Below, in pieces: positions 1-26,335 of a stretch of DNA of 27,500 bases. Each line of letters opens with the position of its first letter. Within the stretch, counting starts at the first letter, position 1. The position numbers and the translations under genes are program-made. Location of the stretch: assembly GCA_943704525.1 (NCBI GenBank), contig CALSCQ010002564.1, forward strand, positions 1 to 27,500, read 5' to 3'. Source of the stretch: Pigoraptor vietnamica. Taxonomy: Eukaryota; Opisthokonta; Filasterea. Below the pieces are notes generated by a model. The model was not told the origin of the DNA. It worked only from the letters and a program-made list of their open reading frames with translations, and made no database searches.

Positions 1-854
1 GGGGGGGGGCCGGGGGGGAGAGGGAAGAAGGTCGAGAGAACGGAGAAACAGCTGTTCGTGAAACCAGGAGGGTGTAGAGAGGGGAGGCCGAACGTTGGTA
101 GGGAAGAACGGCAAGAGAACGGGGTTACCGCTGTTTGTGAGAGTACTGTGTTGTGTGTACGAGTCTTGTCAACTATGGCACACAAGATCGGAGACATGTG
201 CAATTCTTTTTTTTGCGTGTTCGTGTGTGCGTGCGTGCGTGTCCTCACTCGGGTTTTTCGCTTTTTTCGTCCGCAGAGATCATCGGTGCGATTGCGTCTG
301 TGCTTCTCATCTGGGCACTCACGGGCGTGCTCATCTACGAGGCCGTTCTGCGCGTCCTCGACAAGCCGGACGTCGACGGAAAGATTATGTGCATCACAGC
401 CGCGTGCGGTGTCGCCGTCAACATCCTGTGAGTGCGTGCGTGCGTGCGTGCATACAGCGGTTGTGCTGTGCGTGTCTGTGGCATTATTACACGCTAACGC
501 ACTTCTGTCCGGGTTGTCCGTTACGCAGAATGGGCCTCACGCTCCACCAGTCGCACGGCCACAGCCACGGCGGCGGTGGTGACGCCGAGGCAGGCGCCGC
601 GAACGGGAACGGCGCAGGCGCGCACGGCCACTCGCACCACGAGAACATCAACGTGAAGGCTGCGTTCGTGCACGTGCTGGGCGACCTCGTGCAGAGCATC
701 GGCGTGTTGATTGCGGCGATCATCATTTGGGTCAGGCCAGAGTGGAAGATCGCCGACCCCATATGCACGTTCGTGTTCTCTGTGCTCGTCCTCTTCACGA
801 CCATCGGCATCCTGCGCGAGTCGATACACGTGCTCATGGAAGGTGGGGCGCTGG

Positions 855-895
<41 letters not shown>

Positions 896-954
896 TGTGT
901 GTGTGTGTGCGTGTGTGTGTGTGTGAGAGAGAGAGAGGGGGGGGGAGTGTGTGT

Positions 955-1007
<53 letters not shown>

Positions 1008-1495
1008 CGTGCGTGTGTGTTGGGGAGCGTGTGCTGTATTTGTGTGTGCGCGTCGTGCATGACTGCTTTCCAGTAACAGAAAGTGCCATTTTTTCGTCTG
1101 TTTGTGTGAGGCATGCGTACCTCTATTCGTGTGCATGCGCATGTGTGCCAGCTTGCGTGCATCTGACCGCCTGCAAAACCCCTCCCTCAGGTGTGCCAAA
1201 GGGAATCGACTACCCGCGCGTCAAGACGTCCCTCGAGAGCATTCCGGGCGTTCGCCGAGTGCACGACATGCACATTTGGTCCCTCACAATGGGCAAGCCC
1301 GCCATCGCCGTTCACATCGAGACACACCCGGCGGTCGACGGGCACGCCGTCCTCGTCGCCGCGCAGGACCTGCTGTGCAACACGTTCTACATCCACCACA
1401 CGACCATTCAGATCGAGACGGAGGGCGAGGGCGACTTTGCGCACTGCATTGGCGGCGCGAGCTGCAACAACATTTGCTCGGACGTCGTGTACTGA
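1..1495 (+). CDS. Zinc transporter of the cation diffusion facilitator family (ZnT/SLC30, ZnT2/3/8-like), 5'-truncated by the window edge
   Basis: Exons at 277-427, 529-842 and 1191-1495 join in phase (acceptors GCAG, GCAG, TCAG; donors GTGAGT, GTGGGG) and give about 256 C-terminal residues ending in TGA. The first exon holds TM3 ([20 protein letters not shown]) and TM4. The second starts [16 protein letters not shown], carries the His/Gly-rich cytosolic loop typical of ZnTs, then TM5 with the HxxxD zinc-site motif (HVLGD, near 670-685) and TM6. The junction [11 protein letters not shown] restores a classic CDF sequence. The last exon is the cytosolic C-terminal domain ([20 protein letters not shown]). 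Family members export cytosolic Zn2+ into vesicles or out of the cell in exchange for protons. TM1-TM2 and the start codon lie upstream of the window. Bases 1-276 read as intron, so the span includes it. Confidence 0.9.
19..140 (+). repeat. Imperfect direct duplication in the upstream intron
   Basis: Two copies of a purine-rich segment of about 43 bases lie at roughly 19-61 and 99-140. Both run from a GGGAAGAA core through GAGAACGG to GCTGTTYGTGA. The period is about 80 bases. They sit in the partial intron before the first visible zinc-transporter exon. Confidence 0.6.
843..1190 (+). repeat. Intron of the zinc transporter gene filled by a compound (GA)n/(GT)n microsatellite
   Basis: This 348-nt intron starts GTGGGG and ends CCTCAG. 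Bases 859-892 are pure GA repeats. They run into GT repeats, a second GA block (925-937), a run of G, and a long GT tract with TGCG interruptions to about 1020. The microsatellite starts only 16 nt after the splice donor. The rest (1021-1190) is T/G-rich with no exon that fits the reading frame. Confidence 0.9.
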
Positions 1496-4905: not shown

Positions 4906-7900
4906 TCACTTGCGCTTGGGCCTGCTGAGGCTCGCGAGAATGGCGCCGCGGTGGCCGGCGTCCGCGACACCAATGAGCTGGAGGTCGCCGTCGGTGATGT
5001 CCGCCATGAATTCCATGTCGTCGAACCCGGAGTCCACGAACGTCCGCGCGTACTGCTTGAGGCCGAGGCTCTGCAGCCACACCTCGACGGCCGCAGCGGG
5101 CGTCTCCCCGACCGAAGCGCGACGGCGCGCAGCGGCTTGCGCGGCCGCGGCGGCCATCCCTGCGGCACCGGGCGCAGCGTACACGCCGTGCGCGGGTTTG
5201 GGAGGAGGCGCCTTTTTGTCGGGCAGCGGCGCGGGCTTGGCGGGCTTTGCGTAAATGGGCGGCTCTTGCGAGGGCTGCGGCGCCTGTTCGGGCTCTGCTG
5301 GCGCCTGCGGCATTTGAATGGAGAATACAATTCAGGAGATATGCGCGGATTTCGTTTTGGGTGTCGATCGCTGACGCAAAAGTGTATCTGACCGTGCAAT
5401 GCAAAAAAAAAAGAGCATCATGGCCCTTCATCGCCTCCTTCGTGGCATTAATGCGACACATCGGGCGTGAAGTGTCCGTACCTTTGCATTGTCGTCCAAG
5501 ATTTCGACAAAGACGACCTTGAACGTCCCGACGCGGTTGTCGAGCACGCCGGTCCACACGCCGCTGACGTCCTTGTTCGTCACCTCGATAATGTCGCCGA
5601 CCTGCGTGGGGTACACAAGCGCCACCGCCGCGCATTTTAGCATAACAGTTTGTGCGTCAATACGCCCCCCGCCTTCTCCAACCGTCACAACCGCCATCCC
5701 AACCCGAAGTCTCAGCGAACGCCCACGTACCTTGAGAGTGAGAGAGCCTGCATCGTACGCTGTGGGCGTGAACGGACGCTTGACGCGCACGCGGCAGAGA
5801 ATCTCGTGCTTCTGCGGGAGAGCGGGCGCGGCGGCACCCCCAAGTCCCGACGTGCTGCTCTGTCGTACAAAACCGGGCGACGCGAGCGGATTCGAGCTCT
5901 CCTCCACCTGCGCGACGACAGAATAGAATGTCCATTGAGAGCCACATCGACCTCATTGCGCTGCGTCAATACGAATGCACTCAACTCACAACTGAAATGG
6001 CCACACGCCAAGTGAACCAATCGTGTGATCAACAGCCGCAATGCATAGAGTGCACAGCCCACCGTCTCGGAGTCGCGGCGGACGGCCATGCTCTGCCGCT
6101 TCGTCTCCGGCGACGCCATCGAAGCAGCCTTCGACACCACCTTGTCCACGCCACTCTTAATCGCGCCAAACACCGACGTCCGCCGCGACTTCTTGTCGTC
6201 GTCGTCGCTCAGCTCCCCGCGACTGCCCAGCCGCATGATCCCCGCAATCTTGTTCGTGATGCTGAACTTGCGCCCTCCCTCGTCGTCAGAGTGTTCGTCC
6301 TTCGACCTCGCACTGCGCGGCGAGGCGGGCGGCGACATCTGCCCCGTCGGCGCGGCATTCGACGCCGACAGCGTGAGAGGCGAGGGCTTCTCCACAGAAC
6401 GGGGCGGCTCTGCCGGCGCTTCGTCCTTCTTGGCAGGCGTGGGTGTCGGCGCGGGTGCGGGTGTGGGCGTGGGTGCGGGTGTGGGGGCCGGCGCGGACGC
6501 GGGCGACTCGACCGACATCTGTTTCCGCTCAGGCTCTGGCTCCGGCACTGGCTCTGCGACCGCAGGCGCGGGCTCGCTCGGGGCTTCCGCGGGGATGTCC
6601 GCGGGTGCCGCAGCCGCCGCCGCTTCTTCCGCCAGTGGCGCAGGCGCCTCCTTCTTCTTGGGGACGCTCACAAGGGCTTCCAGCTCGGCCCACTCGTCCG
6701 GATTGTACATCGACATGCGCGACTTGCGCATCTCCTCACGTGAAGGCGGTCGGCGGGTGCCGGACTTTGGTCGCCCGTGCGTCGCAGACTTGAGCGTCCG
6801 CACCGTCGCACCTGCAACACAAGGAAGGGGGGGGGGGGGGGGGGGGGGGGGGAGAGGTTTAGTAACTTACGGAGTGATAAGAGAGGCGCATAGCCAGCCA
6901 AAAAGACCCTCACCATCCGCGGGCTGCTGCGCGGACGTGTCGTCACTGCCCTCGAGCGGCGCGCCCTGCGCAAGCGCGCCTCCAATGGCCGCCTGCAACG
7001 TCCGGACATCCTCCGACGCCGGGTTGCCGTCCGCGGACTGCCGCCGCTTCGCGCCCAACGGCGGTGGCCCTCCGCCAATCACAGAGCCCAGCGACGCCAC
7101 CGCAGCCGCCACCTGTCGCGACGCCTGCACAGATTTGAGCGCAGTCTCGCGCGCGCTCAGGGCATCGCTGGCGGAGGATCGGCGTCGCGGCATGTTGTCG
7201 TCCTCCTCGCCACCACCGGAACCGGCACGCGGCGCGCTGAGGTTCGCCTTCATCTGCGCAACCACGTCGCCAGGAAGGGCAGCACGCGCACCGGCAGGCG
7301 CCGCTACAGGGGGCTTCCCACCCACGGGCGGCTTCGACGCAACCGCCGGAGTGGGCTTGGGCGCGGCTGCGGGTGCGGCGTCCCCGGACCCCTTTGGTAG
7401 CACCGGCGGCTTACCAGCAACGGCCGGTGCAGGCTTCGCAGCCACGGCCGGTGTCGGCGCCGCAGCAGCGGGTGAGGATGACACCTCGGGTTCTTCCTTC
7501 GGAGACGCGGCCGCTTTCGGCGCAACGGCCGGCTTCGCAGATATGGCGGGTGCCGGCTTGGGTGCGGCGGCGGGTGCGTCGGCCTTCGCTGCGACGGGCG
7601 GTTTCTCTGAAGCGGGGGGCTTGGGCGCGTCCGCCGGCGACGCTTTCGCGGCGACAGGGGGTTTGGCCGCGGCCGGCGGTTTTTCCGATGCAGCGGGCGG
7701 CTTTTCCGACACGGAGGGCTTTGGCGCTTCGACGGCCGTCTTGGCAGCGACCGGTGGCTTGTCCGCAGCGGGCGGCTTTTCCGATGCGCCGGACTTCTCG
7801 GCGACGGGTGGTTTTTCCGACGGCGCGGGCTTTCCGGCGACGGCAGGTTTGTCCCCCGCGAGTGCCGGCTTCGATCCCACCGCCGGTTTCTCCGTCCCCT

Positions 7901-8588
7901 TGTCGGCAACGGGGGGTTTCCCGCCAACAGGCGGCTTGCTCGCGACCACCGCGGGTGTCTCTGGTTTGGCGGCGGCGGCGGCGGCGGCGTTCAACGCGGC
8001 GACCGTCTCGTCCACCCCGCGCGCCTTCAGACGACCAATCGCAGCCATGAGCGACGCGCGCACAGCGTCATCGTCAATGCCAATGTCGCTGAGATCCGAA
8101 TCGCCAATCTCGGCGACAATGGAGAGGTCATCGTAACCGTTTTCGCAAAGCGTCTCCACGTGGGCGCCCAGCGACTCGGAATGCAGCCAGCGCCCAACAT
8201 CGCCAAACTTAGCATCTGGTGCCGCCGCCGCCGAGGCTGAAGCAGCAGGGGCCGCAGAAGGCGCGGGCGCGGGCGCGGGCTTCAGTTGCGCGGCGGGGAC
8301 GGGCGCTGCCGCAGGCGCTGGCGCGGGTGCTGGGGCTGGCTTCGGCTGAGCGGCTTTCTGAGCCGCCGCAGCCTTGGCGAGAAAGCCATCGAGCCCAAGC
8401 GACTTGAGATCGGCGGCGGCGGCGACAATCTTTGCGCGTACGGATGCGTCGTCGATGCCAATGTCCTCGAGATCCCCTTCGGTGAGCTCGGCGCAGACTG
8501 TAATGTCGTCGTAACCATTGTCGCAGAGGGACGCCGCGTGTGCCCCGAGACCAGCCGCGCTCAGCCACTGCTCGACCGAGTCGGCCAT
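4906..8588 (-). CDS. SAM-SAM-SH3-SAM scaffold protein (SASH/SLY-type SH3), 5 exons, 1039 aa
   Basis: Exons 8588-6914, 6811-6063, 5907-5731, 5601-5482 and 5304-4906 join in phase and total 3120 nt. SAM1 is residues about 3-66 (VEQWLSAAGLGAH, NGYDDITV), SAM2 about 127-192 (GRWLHSESLGAH, NGYDDLSI) and SAM3 about 980-1035 at the C-terminus (VEVWLQSLGLKQYARTF). SAM1 and SAM2 look like a recent internal duplication. Between SAM2 and about residue 480 is a long linker of KPPVA/EKPPAA-like units, then Ser/acidic segments with RRxS-type sites. The SH3 domain (about 845-900, split by an intron) has FTPTAYDAGSLTLK, VGDIIEVTNK, GVWTGVLDNRVGTFK, which is the pattern of SASH1/SASH3 SH3 domains. SAM domains commonly polymerise and SH3 binds Pro-rich peptides, so a cytosolic adaptor is inferred. 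The ATG at 8588 opens directly into SAM1. Confidence 0.9.
6827..6852. repeat. G26 homopolymer in intron 1 of the SAM/SH3 gene
   Basis: Twenty-six consecutive G on the plus strand are C26 in the transcript. The tract ends 14 nt before the TTGCAG acceptor of intron 1 (6913-6812), where a polypyrimidine tract is expected. Homopolymers of this length are also prone to sequencing error; the exact length should be read with caution. Confidence 0.85.
7300..7930 (-). repeat. Degenerate KPP-containing coding repeat in the SAM/SH3 linker
   Basis: Within exon 1 the protein repeats short units such as SEKPPVA, AAKPPVA, GKPPVA and EKPPAA more than twenty times, with Lys-Pro-Pro spaced about every 7-12 residues. 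At DNA level the units are similar but diverged. This makes an extended, positively charged, Pro-rich linker between SAM2 and the rest of the scaffold. Confidence 0.85.
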
Positions 8589-9089
8589 CCCCGCGGCACA
8601 CCGCTAGGGCGTAAGCACTCTCAAATGGAGCGGAAAGGAGAAAGCGAACCCGCAAGAAAGTTTGGGATGCAAATTTCAGAAGTCAAGTGAAAATAGCACG
8701 GTGTCTGCTGCTCTAAGGACGCGAGTGTGTCTCACGCAGCTTGCATCGCGCATACCCCGCCCATCTCCCGTGTCGTAGCAAAATAGAGGCAGTTCGACGT
8801 GTGTGCGGGCACAGCGACAGCGTGTGGCACATAAACTGAGCAAAAAAAGCCTCCTAACCAACCTCTTCAGTGTGTTGGCAGTTGTCACCAAAACAAACCA
8901 TTGGCCGAGATCTCGCAAGAAAATTCTGTTAGTTCGGATGTAACATGCATCAATGTCAGGTTGGGCTTATGCACGAGTGCTGGGTGAGGGTTAGGCGCGA
9001 ATGCCGAAACGGGAAGTCCAGTTCCACAGTGAAAAGACGCCGTTTTGCGCTTAGTGTGTGCGTACACTTGAGCAACAGCATACTGTGCC
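8589..9089. promoter_or_regulatory. Divergent intergenic region shared by the SAM/SH3 gene (-) and the consortin-like gene (+)
   Basis: The two start codons face away from each other across 501 bases, so both promoters must lie here, possibly as one bidirectional promoter. GC content is visibly lower than in the flanking exons. No clear TATA box and no other ORF with coding character was seen. The assignment rests on gene orientation only. Confidence 0.5.
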
Positions 9090-13802: not shown

Positions 13803-16800
13803 CTATGAGACAGGCAGGGTGTGCAGAAACCCACCCGACGTGAGGGAGAAGCTCCTCCCACTGAGCTCGGTCGTTTTCGGCGGCGGCGACCACCAGCTCA
13901 GCACAGACCCAACGACAGGAAGCTGGCGAATAAAGCCCTGGGGGTGCGTGCATGAGTGTTCAGTTACACAGAACGTGAGCGATGGGAGCGGCAGGGGGGG
14001 GGGAGGGGGAGGGGGCATGAATTTGAACAGTAAACGGCTCAATCAAACGCACTGTGAGGGCAATAGACGCAAGTATAAGCACGCACGCACGCACGCACAC
14101 ACACAACAACAACACACAAAACCCACCTCCTCCTGCAGCTTGTGCTCCGTCTCGCGCCGAATGTCGTCCTCCGCCTTCTGTATCACTTGCTGTATGATCA
14201 CAGACACATCGTCAATAAAGTGCGTCGACCGCTCCAGCGCCGTCGCCGTCTCCGCCACCAGCGCCACAAGCTCCCCCGCGTGCTCTTCACGCAGCGACGA
14301 GTCCACAACGCCCACCACGACGCACACGTGACCGTCGGCGTCCTTCCCTCTCGAATAAACAGGCGAGAGCTCGGCAAGGCGGTCCGCAAGCGCCGCATTC
14401 ATCTGTTCGAGACTCACGAGCACGTCCCCCGTCATCATGGCCTCCGAGAGAAACGGAGGGACGTAACGCACGGCCCCAAGCCCGACGCGCGCAGCAAGAG
14501 ACGACGGGCTCGCGGACGTGCACACCGTGTGCGCCAACCACGACGGTCGGGTCACAGACTGCGCCGCCACCAGGGCGGCCGCGGACATGGACGGGGAAGA
14601 CAGCGTCGAGGCGGGGTGCATGAGCGCGGGCGCAATGGTGGGACCATCGCTGTCAAATGGAAACGGGCGCACGTGCTCGTCCTCGCCGACAGAGCTCGCG
14701 CGCTCCCGCCCTGCGAGGCCGTGGAGCGGGTTGATTGCCGCCAGGTGGAGGGAGTCGGACGCGACGACAGCATCGGCGAAAGAGGGGCGGCACCGAATGG
14801 CGGCCGCAATGGCACCGGCGCGCTCGTCCGCTGCGTCTAGACACTTCTCGAGGTTCAGCCACGCCTCCGGCGACGTTCCGAGAGCGCTGCCGCGGACAAA
14901 TGGATCGAATTTCAGGCAGGGCTTCCCGTCCGCCCCAAAGGGTTCGATTCCCACGACGTGCGATGCGCCGGACAGCGCCGCGACGACGCTCGCGTTGGCC
15001 GACGCTGCAAAGACTTCGCCGGGCGAGGGACCGTCGGTCGACAGCGAGACGCCCTCGTCCTGCCCCAGCCCGTCGGGTCCGCTGTAACCAAACAGCACCA
15101 TGTGCGGCGCATTCGGCGCGTCTATCCGCCGCAGCGACGACATGGTCGACAGCCTGTCTGCAAACTTTCGAGAGAGGGAGAGCGACGATCGCACGCGGTC
15201 GCACACGCCGTCACGCCCGAGTCTTCGAAGGCACTCGGCAAGTGCCACCACAGCGCCAAAGTGGCCCGCAGGGTCCACGCGCGCAGACAGTCGTAGCAAC
15301 CTTCGCACAGATGGTGGCGCCGGCTCGCGCAGGAGCGTCACATACGGCGTGCCCGGAAGGCTGACCCAAGCCGCGGGGTCAAGCGCGATTGCATCCGCCG
15401 AAGCCGCCACTGCCTCGAGCACGGGCGTCGTCTGCCCCACCGCAAACGCGGCGAGGGCATTGCCAAGAGCATGAAGCCACATTCCGTGCCTGTCGCACAG
15501 CGTCTTGAGCCGCGTCGCAGTCGCAACATCGGCGGGCGCGCAGTGGTCGAGCGAGAGGGCGACGAAAAGGGGCGTGCAGCCGTTTGCACCGTCTTCAAGA
15601 ACCGTCGCCTCCAGGCCGGCGAGATCGAGCGACTGGTTTCGACGCGGTGGCACTGCGGAATAAAGGGGTTGACGCGCACATGAGACACGATTGAAACACT
15701 TGCTCAGAGAGACAATATCTCCACAGCACGGCACAATAAAGGCGACAATAGATGCGAAAAGCGGGCACAATGGAAAGTAAAAATACGGCCGCCGAGCACA
15801 ACGAAGACTCGGGCGAAGCACTGAAGAGGCCCTAAGCAGACAATTGGCGCACGTACCGAATCGCAGCGATCCCGCGGGAAGTGCAAGGGCAAGCCTCACG
15901 TCCTCCCATCGCTCCACTTCGCGCTTCGTTGGCTCCGAACTGCGATCGCAGGACGATAAGAGAGGGTCGGCATAGCCAACACAATAGAATCGTGCACATT
16001 CATCTTCAGCACACGCACACGCGGCAAAGGGCCCGCACATTCATGGGCCATGCAATTATGACGCACTCACCACACATAGATGACCGGCGGCCGCGTGTAC
16101 AGCGCCCTGCACCCGTCAGACTCAAATCCGTGATACTTGCGCTGCATCGCCAGCTGCGCGCACGCCTCGATCCCTCGCAACCAATCCGTGTGAAACTGGT
16201 GCGTGTGCGGCGCCGAACCCGACGAGTCCGGCGTCTGCGAGCGACGCGTTGCCTCAACTGGCGCTTGCGGCTGTGCACTCGCACCCTTCGAAGAGTGACC
16301 GCCCGCGCCAAAGTGAAACGCACGACGGAGCGCAGTCGCCGCAGAGTACTCGGCAACACTACAAACGGCATTGCGAATGCCCTCGGGAAGCACGTGCGAA
16401 ACGGCAAGCATTGTCGACGCCACGGTTATGGATAGCACGTCGGCGTCCGCTGGGGGAATGTCGGGGCTGCGACACGCACGCATGTCGAGTCACACACAGC
16501 TTACGCATGTAGCTTCGGTGAAAGCGCAGAACACACGCGCAAACGCGCTCAGTGTAACGTCAAACTTATGTTGCGCCGGGTGGGATAAGCACTGCAAACA
16601 CACCTGCCCCTCCGATTGCGCTCCATGTCGACGAGCACTGCGTCCACAATGGCCCATGCTTCCGCGTCCGAGAGGGACAGGTGGTGCGGCATCGTCGGGA
16701 GGCGAGTGAGTAGAACAGCGGCGGCCTCGTCCTGGCGCACAAAAAAAGGTTCAAACCGATGCACAATCGAGAGCAAGGGATGCACAGCGATAAGCGCAAC

Positions 16801-19259: not shown

Positions 19260-22200
19260 TCAGTCGTCCAAAGTAATGCCGTGGGCCTGAAGGCTCGGCG
19301 CCACGCGGCGTGTCACATCGTCCCTCACTTGTGCGTTGACAATACCGCGGAGATACCGCGCGATCTCCCCCCGACGTCTGGTCAGGTGCGCCTCCCGAAA
19401 GTGCTGCCTCACCGGCACGCCGGCTCGTTCGAGAATGTCCCTCACGAGACAGTCCCGGTAATGCGCGTGGGTGTTGTTGTTTGCCCTGTTCTCCGCCGTC
19501 GGATCGTCCCCGAATGTCTGGAGGCAAAGCGCGCAGAACTTGGCCTTGCAATCACTGCGGATGCGCGCAACTCCGGTCAGGAGCGAAGGTAACTGACAAT
19601 GGCCCACAACAGCTTTCGAAATGTTGCGAGTGTGTGAGTGTCTTTGTGTGTGTAAGTGTGTGTGCGTGTGTGGGTGTGTGTGCGTGCGTGCGTGTGCGTG
19701 CGCGTGTGTACGGCCGTGACGCACAATGAGAGCAGACGGTCAAACCACGCACCCGCACTCAAGGGCATCGCACCCATCATACTCTGCAAAGACAGCGTAG
19801 CACGAGGGGCAATGGAGGTTCAGAATGTCCTCGACAATGTGCTCCACGTGGATGCGGACAACAGCCTCCATCGGTCGCTCCACGAATGCCGCCCTCTCGC
19901 GCAGCAAGCGATCGCGATGTACCAACTCGCACCCGCGTCGCGTGAGGCGCCGCGTGGTTTCGCGCATTTTCTCGAGCAGCGTCTCGACGACTGCCTTTGG
20001 TAGGCGCCTGAGGAGCGTGTCCATTGGTAAGAACCTCCCACAGCTGCTTCGGTTAGGGCACGGGACGGCGGTGAGTTCGCATGCAACGGCGCCCTTCGAG
20101 CCAGCGCCGAGCGAGTTGATGTGCATCGCAATGCACGCCCAGCAAAACGTGTGGCCTTCCCCAGGACCGCACGAAACAACCTCGCGCTTGTTCTCCTCAA
20201 AAAAGTCCTTGCATCCGCCGCACTGAACGCGCGCCCCTTCTCCGCCGCCGTTGTCGCTGAAGCACGCATGCGCGAGGGCTGCCGCGGCCGTCGGGCGAGC
20301 ATTGCGGCCCACTTCGAGCACCGACCGAAGAAGATCCGCCACGGATGTGTTCGCGTGCGATGGCAGCACGAGACTGCGCGAGACGCGAACGCTGTCGATC
20401 TCTGCGGGCCGGGAGGCACCCAGATCGGTGGCAAACAAGACGTCGACGAACAGGAGCGCGAAAGAGTACATGTCGCTGGCCTGGGATGCCGGCGCACCGC
20501 CCTGCACTTCGGGGGCTTCGTACAGCGCACACGTGCCGGTGGGAGGAACGGACTCGCGGCACCCGTAGGGGCCTTCTCCCTTGTCCGCGCTCGATTCAAA
20601 GTCGCAGAGCAGGGCGCGGCCGTTGTCGTTCACGAGAACGCACGCCGGATTGATGCGTCGGTGGACAATGTCGCGGGCGTGCACGTGGGCGAGACCCGCA
20701 AGCACATCGCGCATCAAACGCACTCGCTCCGTCCGAGTAGCCTTCCGCCCTTTCAACCACCCCGCGATGTTTGGGAGAGCCGCGCTCAGCACAAGCACGG
20801 CGGCCGGATCGCCATCGGCAGTGCTGCTGAGAAAGGCGCCGTCGTGCGCTGCGATGTTAGGGTGGGTCTGAAGCCTTGCGAGCGCTCGCACTTCGCGGAG
20901 GAATGCGCGCGCTGCTTGCGAACTGCCCAGCCGGAACGCCTTGATAATCTTGGGCGACCCGCCGCACTCAGCCCGCGCCCACGTGATCGGGGCAACGCAT
21001 GTGCCGAACACGTCAGGCTCAACGCGCTCGAACGAGGGGACCGCCGCATACGTCGCAAACGTGCTCCGCGACAGGCCGAGGCGCCGGTCGATATCGGCAC
21101 CAAACTCGCACACAAACTCCGGAAAATACGCCGCCTTCGCGAGGAAGGCCACCGCCGCGTTGTCGCATTGCGCCGCGACCTCCCGCCACCGCGCGAGCGC
21201 ATCGTCCACCCTCTGCGACGCCTCCCGCAACGCCTGGTGATCCGCGCCATCGTCGATTGCGTCGTTATGCACCGTGCGCGCGTCTCTGTACCCCCGCTGC
21301 CCACGTACGAATGCGAGGATCAGTCCGTCGATCGCCGCAAGGTCCGGGCGACCGTCCACATTGGCGCCGTATTCCACGAGCGACTGGATCGCGCGCCCGA
21401 GCGCAGCCAGCTTCTCGATGGCCATGTCGGTCTGGTGCGCCGCCCGCATGCAGTGGCGGTGCAGACTTTGCGCCCAACTGCGCAGCTCCGTCTCGTGGGG
21501 AACAAATGTGCGCGCCTGCTGCCACACTTCCGCCCGTGCCGCGTTGATCGAAGACAGGGGCCCTTCGACGTTCTCGGACGGTTCGGTTCGCCGACGCTTG
21601 AAGGGGCGGCCGTTCTCGGAGTCGACGTCGTCAGGGGACGCACCGGCGCCGTCGGACACAGGTACCGGCTGTTGCACTCTAGCGTGGTCGTCGAGAGTGG
21701 AAGCAGCCACCGTGTCCGTCCTTGGTCCATTCTCCATCCACTGCGCGTGTCGCGCCAGGCACTCTCGCAGCGCGCTCGCGCAGAACGGCGGCGAAGGGCG
21801 CTCGCAGGTAATGTCGATTGTCCACGCAAGGAACGCGCTCGCACGCCGCTGCCACTCGAAGGCCCGCGAGTCGAGGCTTCCCTCCGCGCCGTCCGCCTCG
21901 TGCGCGCGCAGCACAGCCCTGACGAAATCCTCGCGTGCCACGTCCCGCATTTGAATCACATCCGCCGTGGACGACGCGCCCTTCTTCGCAACCATCTGCT
22001 GCGCCACGTTGTACCAGGTTCGCGCGGCCTCTGCGGCATCGACCGCCCCCGTCACCGCGGAGAGCGACTCGTATGCGTCGCAGAACTCCTGCAAGAGGGC
22101 AACGAGGCCGCCGAGGTCCGCACTTCCGTCCTGTGCCAATAGCACGGGCGGACACTGGCCAAGACGACGGGCGACGTCGACCGCCATCACCTCCACATTC

Positions 22201-25200
22201 GCTCCTGGCGTCTGCGCGAGGGCTTCGGCGAGATCTCGCTCGAACTGCGCCATCCTCTGCAGGGACGCCTTGGTCGCGAGGGTGGCGCACACTTCGTCCG
22301 GGGTGCGACCACGCGCGTTGGCGGCCAAGACCGACGCACCGTACTGCAGGAGGGCGAGACAGACGCCCTCGTGTCCGGTCTCGGCGGCATCGTGAAGCGG
22401 AGTGTTGTTCGCGACGTCCACGGCGTGCACGTTTCCCCCGTGGCGCAAGAGCAGCTTGGCCACGGATGGGTGCCTATTTCGCGCGGCGCAGTGCACTGGG
22501 GTCAACCGGTCTGCGCCGCTCACGGCGTTAACGTCGGCGCCTCGTTCCAGCATGAGCGCGACGAGGTCCAACTGCCCCGTCGCACACGCAAAGTGGAGGG
22601 GCGAGCACGCGCCGGCGATCTCTTGTGTCGGGCGGGCACCCGCGGCAATGAGCGCCCCCGCCACATTGAACTTGTGCTTCCGAAGCGACCCCGCGATCGG
22701 CGTTTCGCCGCTGTTGTTCGCAACGTCTACGTACGCGCCTGCTTCGAGCAGCGCTCCGACCGTGTCGTCGTCCCCGTTCTCGGCGGCCAGGTGAAGCGGC
22801 GTGCTTCCGTCCGCCGCGCGCGCGTTGACGTCTGCTCGGGCCCCCAATAGTGACGCACACGCACGAGCACACCCGTTTCTCGCGGCAGAATGCAGGGCCG
22901 TGTACCCCCGCACGCACACGGTCGCCACATCCGCTCCTCGCGCCAGGAGTGCCTCAATGCCCTCCACGCAGTTGCGCATGGCGGCGTAGTGCAACGCCGT
23001 GCCCTTGGGCGACGCGGCGCGCACGTCCGCCCCGCGGTCCAGGAGTAACGCCAGCGACGAAAGCGCCTTGTTGTCGGCCGCGACGAGGAGCGGCGTTCTT
23101 CCATCCGCGTCACGTGCCTCGATGTCCGCGCCGGCGCGCAACAGTGCGTCGACGGCGTCCATGTTGTTGGCTGCCACCGCAATTGGAACGGCGCTTCCCT
23201 CGCGAGCGCCAGAGCCCCTCTCGCGCGATCGCGCCGCCGCAAGAAACGCAATGATGTCTCCCCGCCCCTGCAGACGCACCGCCTTGTTCAGTGCCGCGTT
23301 CGTGACGCTCGCATTGGCAGCGAGCAGCGTCGCCACGACCTGCGCGTGGCCAGCGCCGCACGCAATTTCCAGCGGCGTTTCTCCGCCCGCGCCGGGTGAG
23401 TTGACGTCCGCCCTCTCGCTGATGAGGATACTGACGGTCATCCAGTGCCCTCCGCGCGCGGCGACGTGGATGGGTGCATCGCGTCGATTGTCCAGCGCCC
23501 CGACCCGTGCGCCTGCAGCCACAAGGGGGTGGATGACTGCGTCGCGCCCTGCGCCCGCGGCGACGTGAAGCGGCGTCTGCAGGTGGACATCGGGAATGTC
23601 CGGTGACACGCCGATTCTCAGCAAATCGAAAATCATTTGCGGGGAGCCCGCTCCCGCCGCCGCGTGCATCGCACTCCGCCCTTGCTTGTCGACCCCTTGG
23701 ACGTCCACGCGGTAATCGCGCAAAAGCCGAACAATGTCACCGAGCCCGCGCTCTGCGGCAATGTGCATCGCGGTCGACCCTCCGTCGCACACGCAGTCCC
23801 AGCGAGCGCCCTCCTCCATAAGCAGCTGCACGCACCCGTGCCTGTTCTCAGCAATCGCCACCGCCAGTGGCGTGAACCCCCTCGCCCGCTGGCACGGGTC
23901 AAGGCGTGCGCCGTGCTTCCGTAGTATGCGCACGACTTCGGTGTGCCCATTCGCCGCCGCCACGTGGAGAGGCGTGCGCAACTCCGTCTGCTCCTGTACG
24001 TCCGGGTCGGCGCCATATTCCAAGAGCACTCCGGCTGCGGCGTCGCTTCCCACGCCGGCAGCGACGTGAAGGGGCGTGCGACCGTCCATGTCGGTATCGT
24101 TTGCGTTCGCTTGCGACGCGAGACATCTGCGAAGGAACTCGGCGTCCCCGCGTGTCGCACCGTAGTGCAGCACACCCACCCCCTGTGCGCCCCGAAATTG
24201 ACGCACGCCGCCAACTCCCGCTATGAGGACACCCAGGGCATCCCAGTGGCCCTTACGCGCAGAAATGTCCGCGGGAAGCTCGCCGCGGTGATTCCTTGCG
24301 CTGGCGTCGGCGCCGGCTGCCAACAGCAAGCGCACGCAAGCGGCGTTGCCTATCGCTGCGGCAAGGTGAAGAGGGGCAACGTCATCGGCGCCGGTCTTGT
24401 TGACGGGCGCCCCGTGCGAGACAAGAAACTGCGCAAGCGCAAGAAGGCTCGCGGCGTCCTGCTGCCGGTCCCGCGCGCCGTTGTCGTCTTGTGGCGAGTG
24501 TGCTTCAAAGAGGGCGTAAAGTGGCGTTGCGCCACGTGAATCGACGGCGGCGACGCACGCGGGCCACGCATCCGCAAGCAGAACGCCAATGTCGAGCCTA
24601 CCAGCGGCGCACGCAGCGTGCATGGCAGTCCGCCCGTCCACGAGGGTTGCGCGCACATCCGCATTGCGACTGAGAAGAGTACGAACCGTGTCCGAGTGCG
24701 CGTCGTGCAGCAGGGCGACAATAAGGGCGTTGGCGCCGGTTGCGTCGCGTGCCTCAATGTCCGCCCCCGCGGCGAGGAGGGCGTCCAAAACAGCCGCGTC
24801 GTCGATGCCGCGACGCAGCCATATGTGCAACGGGGTGTCGCCGTTGACGGCTTCGACGACGGTGGCAGGGGCGCGCTGAGCCAACACGCGCACAGTCTCC
24901 GAGGAGCCCGTGTGCGCGGCAAGGTGAATCGGCAAGAACCCCTTGTGTGTGCGTGCGTGGGTGTCCGCATGCGCGAAGCTGAGAAGGGCCTCGATGATGT
25001 CGGGGTCGATGTTCTCAGTTTTGGCTGCGACGTGGAGGGGCGTCTGGCCGTTTGCGTCGGCGCACCGCGCGACAGAGGGGTCCCTGCGCAACAGAAACCT
25101 TACAAAGTCGCAATTGTTCATCCTGACGGCGGCGCAGATTAAAGGAACGGGCCGACCCTGCGGGGACCATGCCGTTAACGCGGCTCACGACATTCAAGCG

Positions 25201-25491
25201 AGGGGTCTCCGTGTTGTGCGAAGAAGCGTGAGTGTGCGTGTGTGTACTTGTGCGCACGCGTGTGGTGTGCACACGTTAACGTTTGTAAAACAAGGTCCTC
25301 ACCCCACTATGGACCACAGCATCGGGAGGGACTAGATTCCTGCTGACCAGGCTGATCGCACCGTCTGCATCGTGACTGTTAACGCAGTCTTGTAGCTGGG
25401 CCAGGGCGTGCTCGCGGTCCGTCGCTGCTGCTCTCAGCGGGGGTGCGTCGTCGTCGTCGAGCCCGCTTTCCATATCGACATCCTCCGCCAT
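19260..25491 (-). CDS. Giant ankyrin-repeat protein with pseudokinase and RING/Rcat-like zinc modules (3 exons, 1962 aa)
   Basis: Exons 25491-25303, 25157-19753 and 19554-19260 join in phase (5889 nt). Residues 1-60 are acidic. About 28 ankyrin repeats fill residues 64-1010 (NGQTPLHVAA, DGRTPLHVAA, DGSTPLHLAA). A helical region follows with a basic cluster (RPFKRRRTEP). Residues about 1437-1697 look like a protein kinase: the ATP lysine is present (SPKIIKAF) and APE is kept (YEAPE), but the Gly loop is absent, HRD is HRR (IVHRRINPACVLVN) and DFG is DFE, so it is probably a pseudokinase. A RING-like finger starts near 1708 (CGGCKDFFEE, CGPGEGHTFCWAC). Residues about 1844-1915 hold an Rcat-like module (CPSCYAVFAEYDGCDALEC, joined across the last intron to GDCKAKFCALCLQTF), with a Cys in DGC where RBR ligases keep their catalytic cysteine. 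A ubiquitin ligase role is inferred, with ankyrins selecting targets. Confidence 0.9.
19625..19710. repeat. GT-rich microsatellite in the last intron of the ankyrin/RING gene
   Basis: Interrupted GT/TGCG units on the plus strand fill the middle of intron 2 (19752-19555). In the transcript this is a CA-rich tract, the opposite orientation to most other introns here. Confidence 0.85.

Positions 25492-26335
<844 letters not shown>

Follow-up and report, generated by a model that had tools for sequence, protein, structure and literature searches.

RBR ubiquitin ligases (parkin, HHARI/ARIH1, ARIH2, CUL9, HOIP, HOIL-1 and RNF216) carry a RING1-type domain upstream of an Rcat domain that holds a cysteine at the catalytic position. 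RCR ligases such as MYCBP2 pair a RING with a cysteine relay and are not known to have an IBR between the two, and the tandem-cysteine domain of MYCBP2 is not regarded as an Rcat. The RCR ligases are treated as a separate ligase class, and MYCBP2 is labelled RBR-like, in the relevant excerpt of one paper (PMC13008643). According to an excerpt of a 2014 review of RBR ligases, RING1, BRcat and Rcat are invariably found as a set and in that order, which the review reads as meaning that all three are required; no clear case of a BRcat or an Rcat on its own had been identified (PMC3940038). Departures from the common pattern have been described: in an excerpt on HOIL-1, the residue two positions after the catalytic cysteine (+2) is Trp, a C-terminal histidine (H510) is used instead, and the enzyme functions without a +2 His (PMC9853177), and a viral protein has been proposed, in the text excerpted, as an atypical RBR (PMC6901176). 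Ligases that join other domains in one chain include Arabidopsis KEG (Keep on Going), which by its excerpted description combines RING, kinase, ankyrin and HERC2-like repeats (PMC4022593), and ANKIB1, for which the review excerpt lists two ankyrin repeats, an RBR and an Ariadne domain and mentions no kinase (PMC3940038).

Results

A three-exon gene encodes ankyrin repeats, a kinase fold and two zinc domains in one chain

The window, i.e., the whole 27,500-nucleotide stretch of DNA analysed here, is one complete contig (C1065) in a draft genome of 32.5 Mb and 1395 contigs, which we regard as eukaryotic on account of its introns and gene content. Neither a 19-base rRNA pattern nor a light-harvesting family was matched. 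The minus strand of the window holds, from 25491 to 19260, a gene of three exons and two GT-AG introns whose spliced product is 1962 residues long, reproducing the length given in a preliminary description of the locus. Frame 1 of the plus strand over 19260-25491 is interrupted by stops. A minus-strand stop-to-stop frame of 1814 amino acids (25184-19740) runs uninterrupted from the ankyrins to the middle of the Rcat-like domain, as expected from that description, which had placed the ankyrins, kinase and zinc modules in a single chain. The ankyrin-kinase-RING-Rcat feature is thus confirmed, as a predicted protein, to be real and a single chain. Its parts are as follows.

25303..25491, minus strand: exon 1, residues 1-63, start ATG at 25491
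25158..25302, minus strand: intron 1, GT-AG, holding an in-frame stop
19753..25157, minus strand: exon 2, open, encoding the ankyrins, kinase, RING and half of the Rcat-like domain
22287..25157, minus strand: ankyrin array, residues 64 to ~1020 (Pfam Ank_2, 4.4e-121; profile from the protein's own repeats)
21039..22286, minus strand: middle region, residues 1021-1436, no Pfam family matched
20256..21038, minus strand: pseudokinase, residues 1437-1697 (Pkinase, 1.5e-20 for the isolated domain; alignment)
20040..20222, minus strand: RING1-type zinc domain, C1709-C1769 (eight invariant ligands; matches of paralogue C491)
19812..20039, minus strand: linker, residues 1770-1845, at the usual place of BRcat/IBR, with one Cys that is not conserved
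19753..19811, minus strand: Rcat-like domain, first part, with C1846, C1849, catalytic-position C1859 and C1864 (Pfam; alignment)
19555..19752, minus strand: intron 2, GT-AG, splitting the G1865 codon within the Rcat-like domain
19260..19554, minus strand: exon 3 (spliced translation)
19449..19554, minus strand: Rcat-like domain, second part, with C1867, C1872, C1875, H1894, H1896 and C1900 (alignment)
19260..19448, minus strand: C-terminal tail, residues 1901-1962 and stop codon, aligning with paralogues and with the outside relative L031

The donor of intron 2 was chosen by homology. Ten GT donors were tried against one acceptor, and four of the ten read on into exon 3; the donor at 19752 was taken because it is the only one of the ten under which no cysteine found in the intronless paralogues is lost. 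Coding bias was dropped as evidence for the gene model: all six coding segments have a low second-position G+C (0.43-0.54), but the introns are short and the values of one of them (0.51/0.52/0.67) resemble a coding pattern. Both introns (19555-19752 and 25158-25302) contain CA-rich stretches, and a long CA/GT microsatellite lies upstream of the gene (window 25676-25780). Elsewhere in the window we noted a CDF-family cation transporter (62-1495, plus strand), a protein with two SAM-domain stretches (6867-8603, minus strand) and a PDXDC1-like protein (14043-16040, minus strand; PF22937 over its cut-off, decarboxylase model below it).

A Pfam scan of exon 2 returned Ank_2 at 4.4e-121 with 21 Ank stretches, and 22 units exceeded 20 bits with a profile built from the repeats of this protein itself. 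With three weak in-register matches and three uncovered gaps the count rises to ~28, so the earlier figure of "about 28" repeats holds as 22 clear units with room for about six weak ones; a 1.4-bit match of the same profile at residue 1318, outside the array, was discarded. The middle region showed no detectable relationship to the pre-kinase regions of the paralogues described below, and with a profile of three paralogues it scored no better than shuffles, which leaves a shared pre-kinase domain unsupported for the window protein. By eye, an FPE...D...LGL motif adjoins the kinase, and a basic patch, RPFKRRR (residues 1247-1253; window 21588-21608, minus strand), is a possible nuclear localisation signal.

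The kinase-RING-linker-Rcat arrangement recurs in the same genome

At least three further genes of this genome (C910, C201 and C491) encode a kinase, RING, linker and Rcat with the same features; the searches scored the best candidates, and more family members are possible. The post-ankyrin region of the window protein aligns with C201 (E 4e-36), C910 (1e-31) and C491 (3e-23) over 461-496 columns, which indicates that the kinase-RING-Rcat combination is more than chance. Across all four proteins the RING ligands, the Rcat ligands and the catalytic-position Cys are invariant. The ankyrin part of the window protein had no blastp match in the paralogue frames, and Pfam scans confined to the frames of C910, C201, C682 and C491b found no ankyrin family.

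The kinase fold is a pseudokinase within a small kinase group

The kinase fold is matched by Pfam Pkinase (6.9e-19 on exon 2; 1.5e-20 for the isolated domain). It retains K1469, E1485 and D1582, the ATP-site Lys and the DFG Asp among them. HRD has become HRR (R1564), DFG has become DFE, the catalytic-loop Lys is replaced by N1566 and the Asn by C1569, and the domain therefore lacks the HRD Asp, the catalytic-loop Asn and the intact DFG of an active kinase, bearing out its designation as a pseudokinase. The glycine loop is not recognisable, since the Pfam kinase matches begin at profile positions 32-36. Searched against the PDB, the domain placed CTR1 and RIPK3, which we take to be TKL kinases, at the top of 822 matched sequences.

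Within the genome, a search with the window kinase gave by far its strongest matches to C201, C910 and C682 (E 1e-25 to 1e-20), whereas C491 was barely ahead of the remaining kinases (1.5e-7 vs 2.1e-7). In a tree of 12 kinases (the window kinase, C201, C910, C682 and C491 with seven of the 13 other matches), these five were separated from the rest by a branch with support 86/92, found in 89% of 200 bootstrap trees, a branch that the tool did not star, from a bootstrap that had not settled and an alignment in which several rows are long or partial. C910 reads HRDVKPQN, C201 HCDVKPQN and C682 HRDIKPEN, each with DFD for DFG, while C491 reads HGALTPQC and GDMH and scores just 19.8 bits with Pkinase, below the cut-off. 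The HRD-type Asp and catalytic Asn are thus present in C910 and C201 and absent from the window gene and C491. In C682 (L045:50-3604, minus strand) a PARP catalytic domain (PF00644, 1.3e-22) replaces the ligase, and a coiled-coil-like stretch lies between it and the kinase. Frames near the C491 and C682 kinase genes (L017 and L045) contain 'DVS.L...VHTL.L' repeats that look leucine-rich-repeat-like by eye.

A RING1-type domain precedes an Rcat-like domain with an invariant cysteine

The RING expected from the preliminary description is present, its eight ligands (C1709, C1712, C1726, H1732, C1735, C1738, C1763 and C1769) being invariant in all four family members, the window gene included. Against Pfam the window RING stayed below the cut-offs (best zf-RING_UBOX, 0.014), and the C910 and C201 zinc domains reached none either. 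The C491 RING matches RNF216 (7e-5) and is the genome's single match to PF17978 (30 bits, cut-off 26.6), a score that straddles the cut-off in two other scans (27.0 and 25.9 bits). These invariant ligands and the C491 matches, with the window RING by itself under the Pfam cut-offs, identify a RING1 of RBR type.

The Rcat-like domain scored 28.9 bits with IBR_1 when scanned alone and 26.8 bits in a longer piece (cut-off 27). Its pattern, C-x2-C...GC...C...C-x4-C-x2-C...H-x-H-x3-C, is invariant in all five sequences, including the Cys at the catalytic place. The DGC cysteine that had been singled out, Cys1859, therefore occupies the catalytic position. The residue at +2 is Ala in 5/5, in place of the His usual there and carried by most RBR members. 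Of the two histidines in H-x-H-x3-C, one presumably binds zinc, which may leave the other available to act. When a profile combining the C-termini of the window protein, C910, C201 and C491 was searched against the PDB, it matched, with E up to 0.01, eight distinct sequences, all eight of them RBR ligases (among them CUL9 at 2.6e-5, ARIH2 at 1e-4, parkin at 0.0043 and HHARI at 0.0079). The matches fall on the Rcat, and that to ARIH2 spans RING1 to Rcat. When the C491 Rcat region was searched alone, the PHD finger of PHF2 (0.0025) came ahead of any Rcat (ARIH2, 0.18). Together, the IBR_1 score, the PDB matches and the Cys kept in 5/5 point to an Rcat with a cysteine at its catalytic position. 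Single-sequence AlphaFold2 gave no usable fold for the window kinase-RING-linker piece (mean pLDDT 35.6) or for the RING-IBR-Rcat piece of L031 (34.0).

The family lacks the BRcat that a relative carries

Between the final Cys of the RING and the first Cys of the Rcat-like domain lie 76 residues in the window protein, 78 in C910, 76 in C201 and 62 in C491, with 1, 0, 0 and 1 Cys, respectively. The same interval spans 181 residues with 7 Cys in L020, a same-genome RBR with three IBR stretches, which served as the comparison (two other RBR-like loci, L019 and L021, were left out), and 101 residues with 9 Cys in L031. IBR-model matches in the window protein sit on the Rcat-like domain and not on the linker, and the weak IBR match of C491 starts about a dozen residues before its Rcat-like domain. 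As judged from these linkers and from the positions of the IBR-model matches in the predicted proteins, BRcat is absent from the whole family (4/4) and not just from the window gene. An HH comparison with L020 aligned RING1 alone, at a probability of 6.9%.

We scanned viral contigs with C-terminal and Rcat-only alignments and confirmed no relative there, and a scan of prokaryote genomes gave 177 pattern matches and one confirmed relative, L031, the single outside relative of the Rcat and tail found in these two sets. L031 (contig JAIYDP010000293.1; L031:1384-6372) is a 1662-aa open frame in which a RING-like domain is followed by a clear IBR (5.6e-11) and then by the same type of Rcat and tail. 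Its Rcat aligns at 37% identity (E 3e-15; HH probability 99), and the protein matches ARIH1 at 9.4e-10; its RING and Rcat individually are below the Pfam cut-offs, and the Pfam scan found no kinase or ankyrin family in it. The N-terminal half of L031 looks helicase-like by eye, with just AAA matches below the cut-off in Pfam. The contig was binned to a Verrucomicrobiaceae MAG and is probably mis-binned eukaryotic DNA. Since L031 carries the same Rcat behind a RING1 and an IBR, this one relative suggests that the family Rcat came from a complete RBR that has since lost its BRcat.

Discussion

This protein is assembled from ordinary parts, but its ligase core is out of the ordinary. It resembles RBR ligases in having a RING1-type domain followed downstream by an Rcat that bears a catalytic-position Cys, and unlike them it has no BRcat/IBR, no +2 His and a kinase fold in the same chain. 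Its Rcat had been likened to that of RBR ligases, and the likeness holds for the RING1 and the Rcat-like domain but does not extend to a standard RBR, given the missing BRcat/IBR and the Ala at +2. By the definition in the review, the protein would be an RBR-derived variant, not a strict RBR, that may work in the same way. HOIL-1 shares with it, by alignment, DGCD at the catalytic site and the want of a +2 His, and differs in its IBR and in the binuclear zinc cluster at its C-terminus, the end of which provides H510. In L031 the same Rcat and tail are found together with an IBR, which the window protein lacks. As RCR ligases are described, the protein would resemble them in pairing a RING with a cysteine relay without an intervening IBR, and would differ in that their tandem-cysteine domain is not regarded as an Rcat.

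The preliminary description knew of no ligase with this domain order, and we found no match for the architecture in the open-licence literature; its part list is less unusual. KEG has RING, kinase and ankyrins in one chain in a different order, and its excerpted description includes HERC2-like repeats and mentions no Rcat (PMC4022593); our Pfam scan of the protein listed no HERC2-like family; ANKIB1 likewise joins ankyrins and RBR-type parts. In the open-licence literature we found neither a RING1-Rcat without BRcat nor its fusion to a kinase described. The suggestion of a kinase-scaffolded ubiquitin ligase fits the one chain, the pseudokinase, the RING and the DGC cysteine, but the protein does not stand alone, as three genes of the same genome share its kinase-RING-linker-Rcat part. 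No result touched on the effector biology that the description had raised.

We hypothesize, with a confidence just above even, that the protein is an RBR-derived ubiquitin ligase without BRcat that loads ubiquitin on Cys1859 for targets bound by the ankyrins. RING1 would bind a ubiquitin-charged E2, and the linker, perhaps as one long helix replacing the usual helix-BRcat-helix, would let the Rcat reach it. Ubiquitin would then pass to Cys1859 as a thioester and on to a target held on the ankyrin array. Because the +2 residue is Ala in 5/5, a general base would have to come from elsewhere, as in HOIL-1, with H1894 or H1896, both invariant, as the candidate. The pseudokinase would be a nucleotide- or partner-sensing scaffold between the recognition arm and the ligase.

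That the predicted protein is a cysteine-dependent E3 we put at about one half, and the serious rivals are a ligase that works through its RING only and a dead scaffold. In the former, ubiquitin would go from E2 to substrate directly and the Rcat-like domain, a zinc module with a structural role or one in binding ubiquitin, would carry out no thioester chemistry. Without its BRcat the protein could have lost transthiolation, because the review excerpt deems all three domains needed in RBRs (PMC3940038), and BRcat is missing in 4/4. The +2 His is absent in 5/5 and the C491 Rcat region matches a PHD finger, yet the catalytic-position Cys is invariant in 5/5 and the other zinc ligands are all in place, and lack of the +2 His does not by itself make a dead enzyme, because HOIL-1, with Trp at that position, relies on H510 at its C-terminus. 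The RING1 domains of RBR ligases, moreover, operate with Cys transfer, and we regard a RING-only ligase as unlikely, though it carries appreciable weight. A scaffold in which kinase and ligase parts are both dead, leaving an ankyrin adaptor, would suit the lost kinase residues, the unusual Rcat and the low Pfam scores; it would be harder to square with eight RING ligands and the Rcat Cys kept despite 27-31% identity to the paralogues, and we think it decidedly improbable.

Two further explanations concern the gene model. A missed exon or sequence divergence could conceal an IBR, as the gene has introns, but the linker lies inside one exon here and inside single open frames in the three paralogues and holds 0-1 Cys, so that a canonical RBR is very hard to credit here. 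It is equally hard to see the ankyrin, kinase and ligase parts as separate transcripts joined by an artefact, given that the uninterrupted 1814-codon frame covers the ankyrins to mid-Rcat and that kinase-RING-Rcat recurs in three paralogues.

If the cysteine-dependent reading is extended to the family, we can tentatively propose, at somewhat less than even confidence, a BRcat-less cysteine-relay class of RING1-linker-Rcat ligases under kinase or pseudokinase control, with an alternative base and possibly non-lysine acceptors, in which one kinase group is wired to ubiquitin in four genes and to ADP-ribose in one. Since the HRD-type Asp and Asn are kept in two paralogues (C910 and C201, both with DFD for DFG) and lost in the window gene and C491, kinase- and pseudokinase-controlled ligases could be compared within one family. 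What BRcat contributes becomes directly testable in a natural family that joins RING1 to a cysteine-bearing Rcat through a linker, and, if its members are active, an RBR-type enzyme can work without its middle domain.
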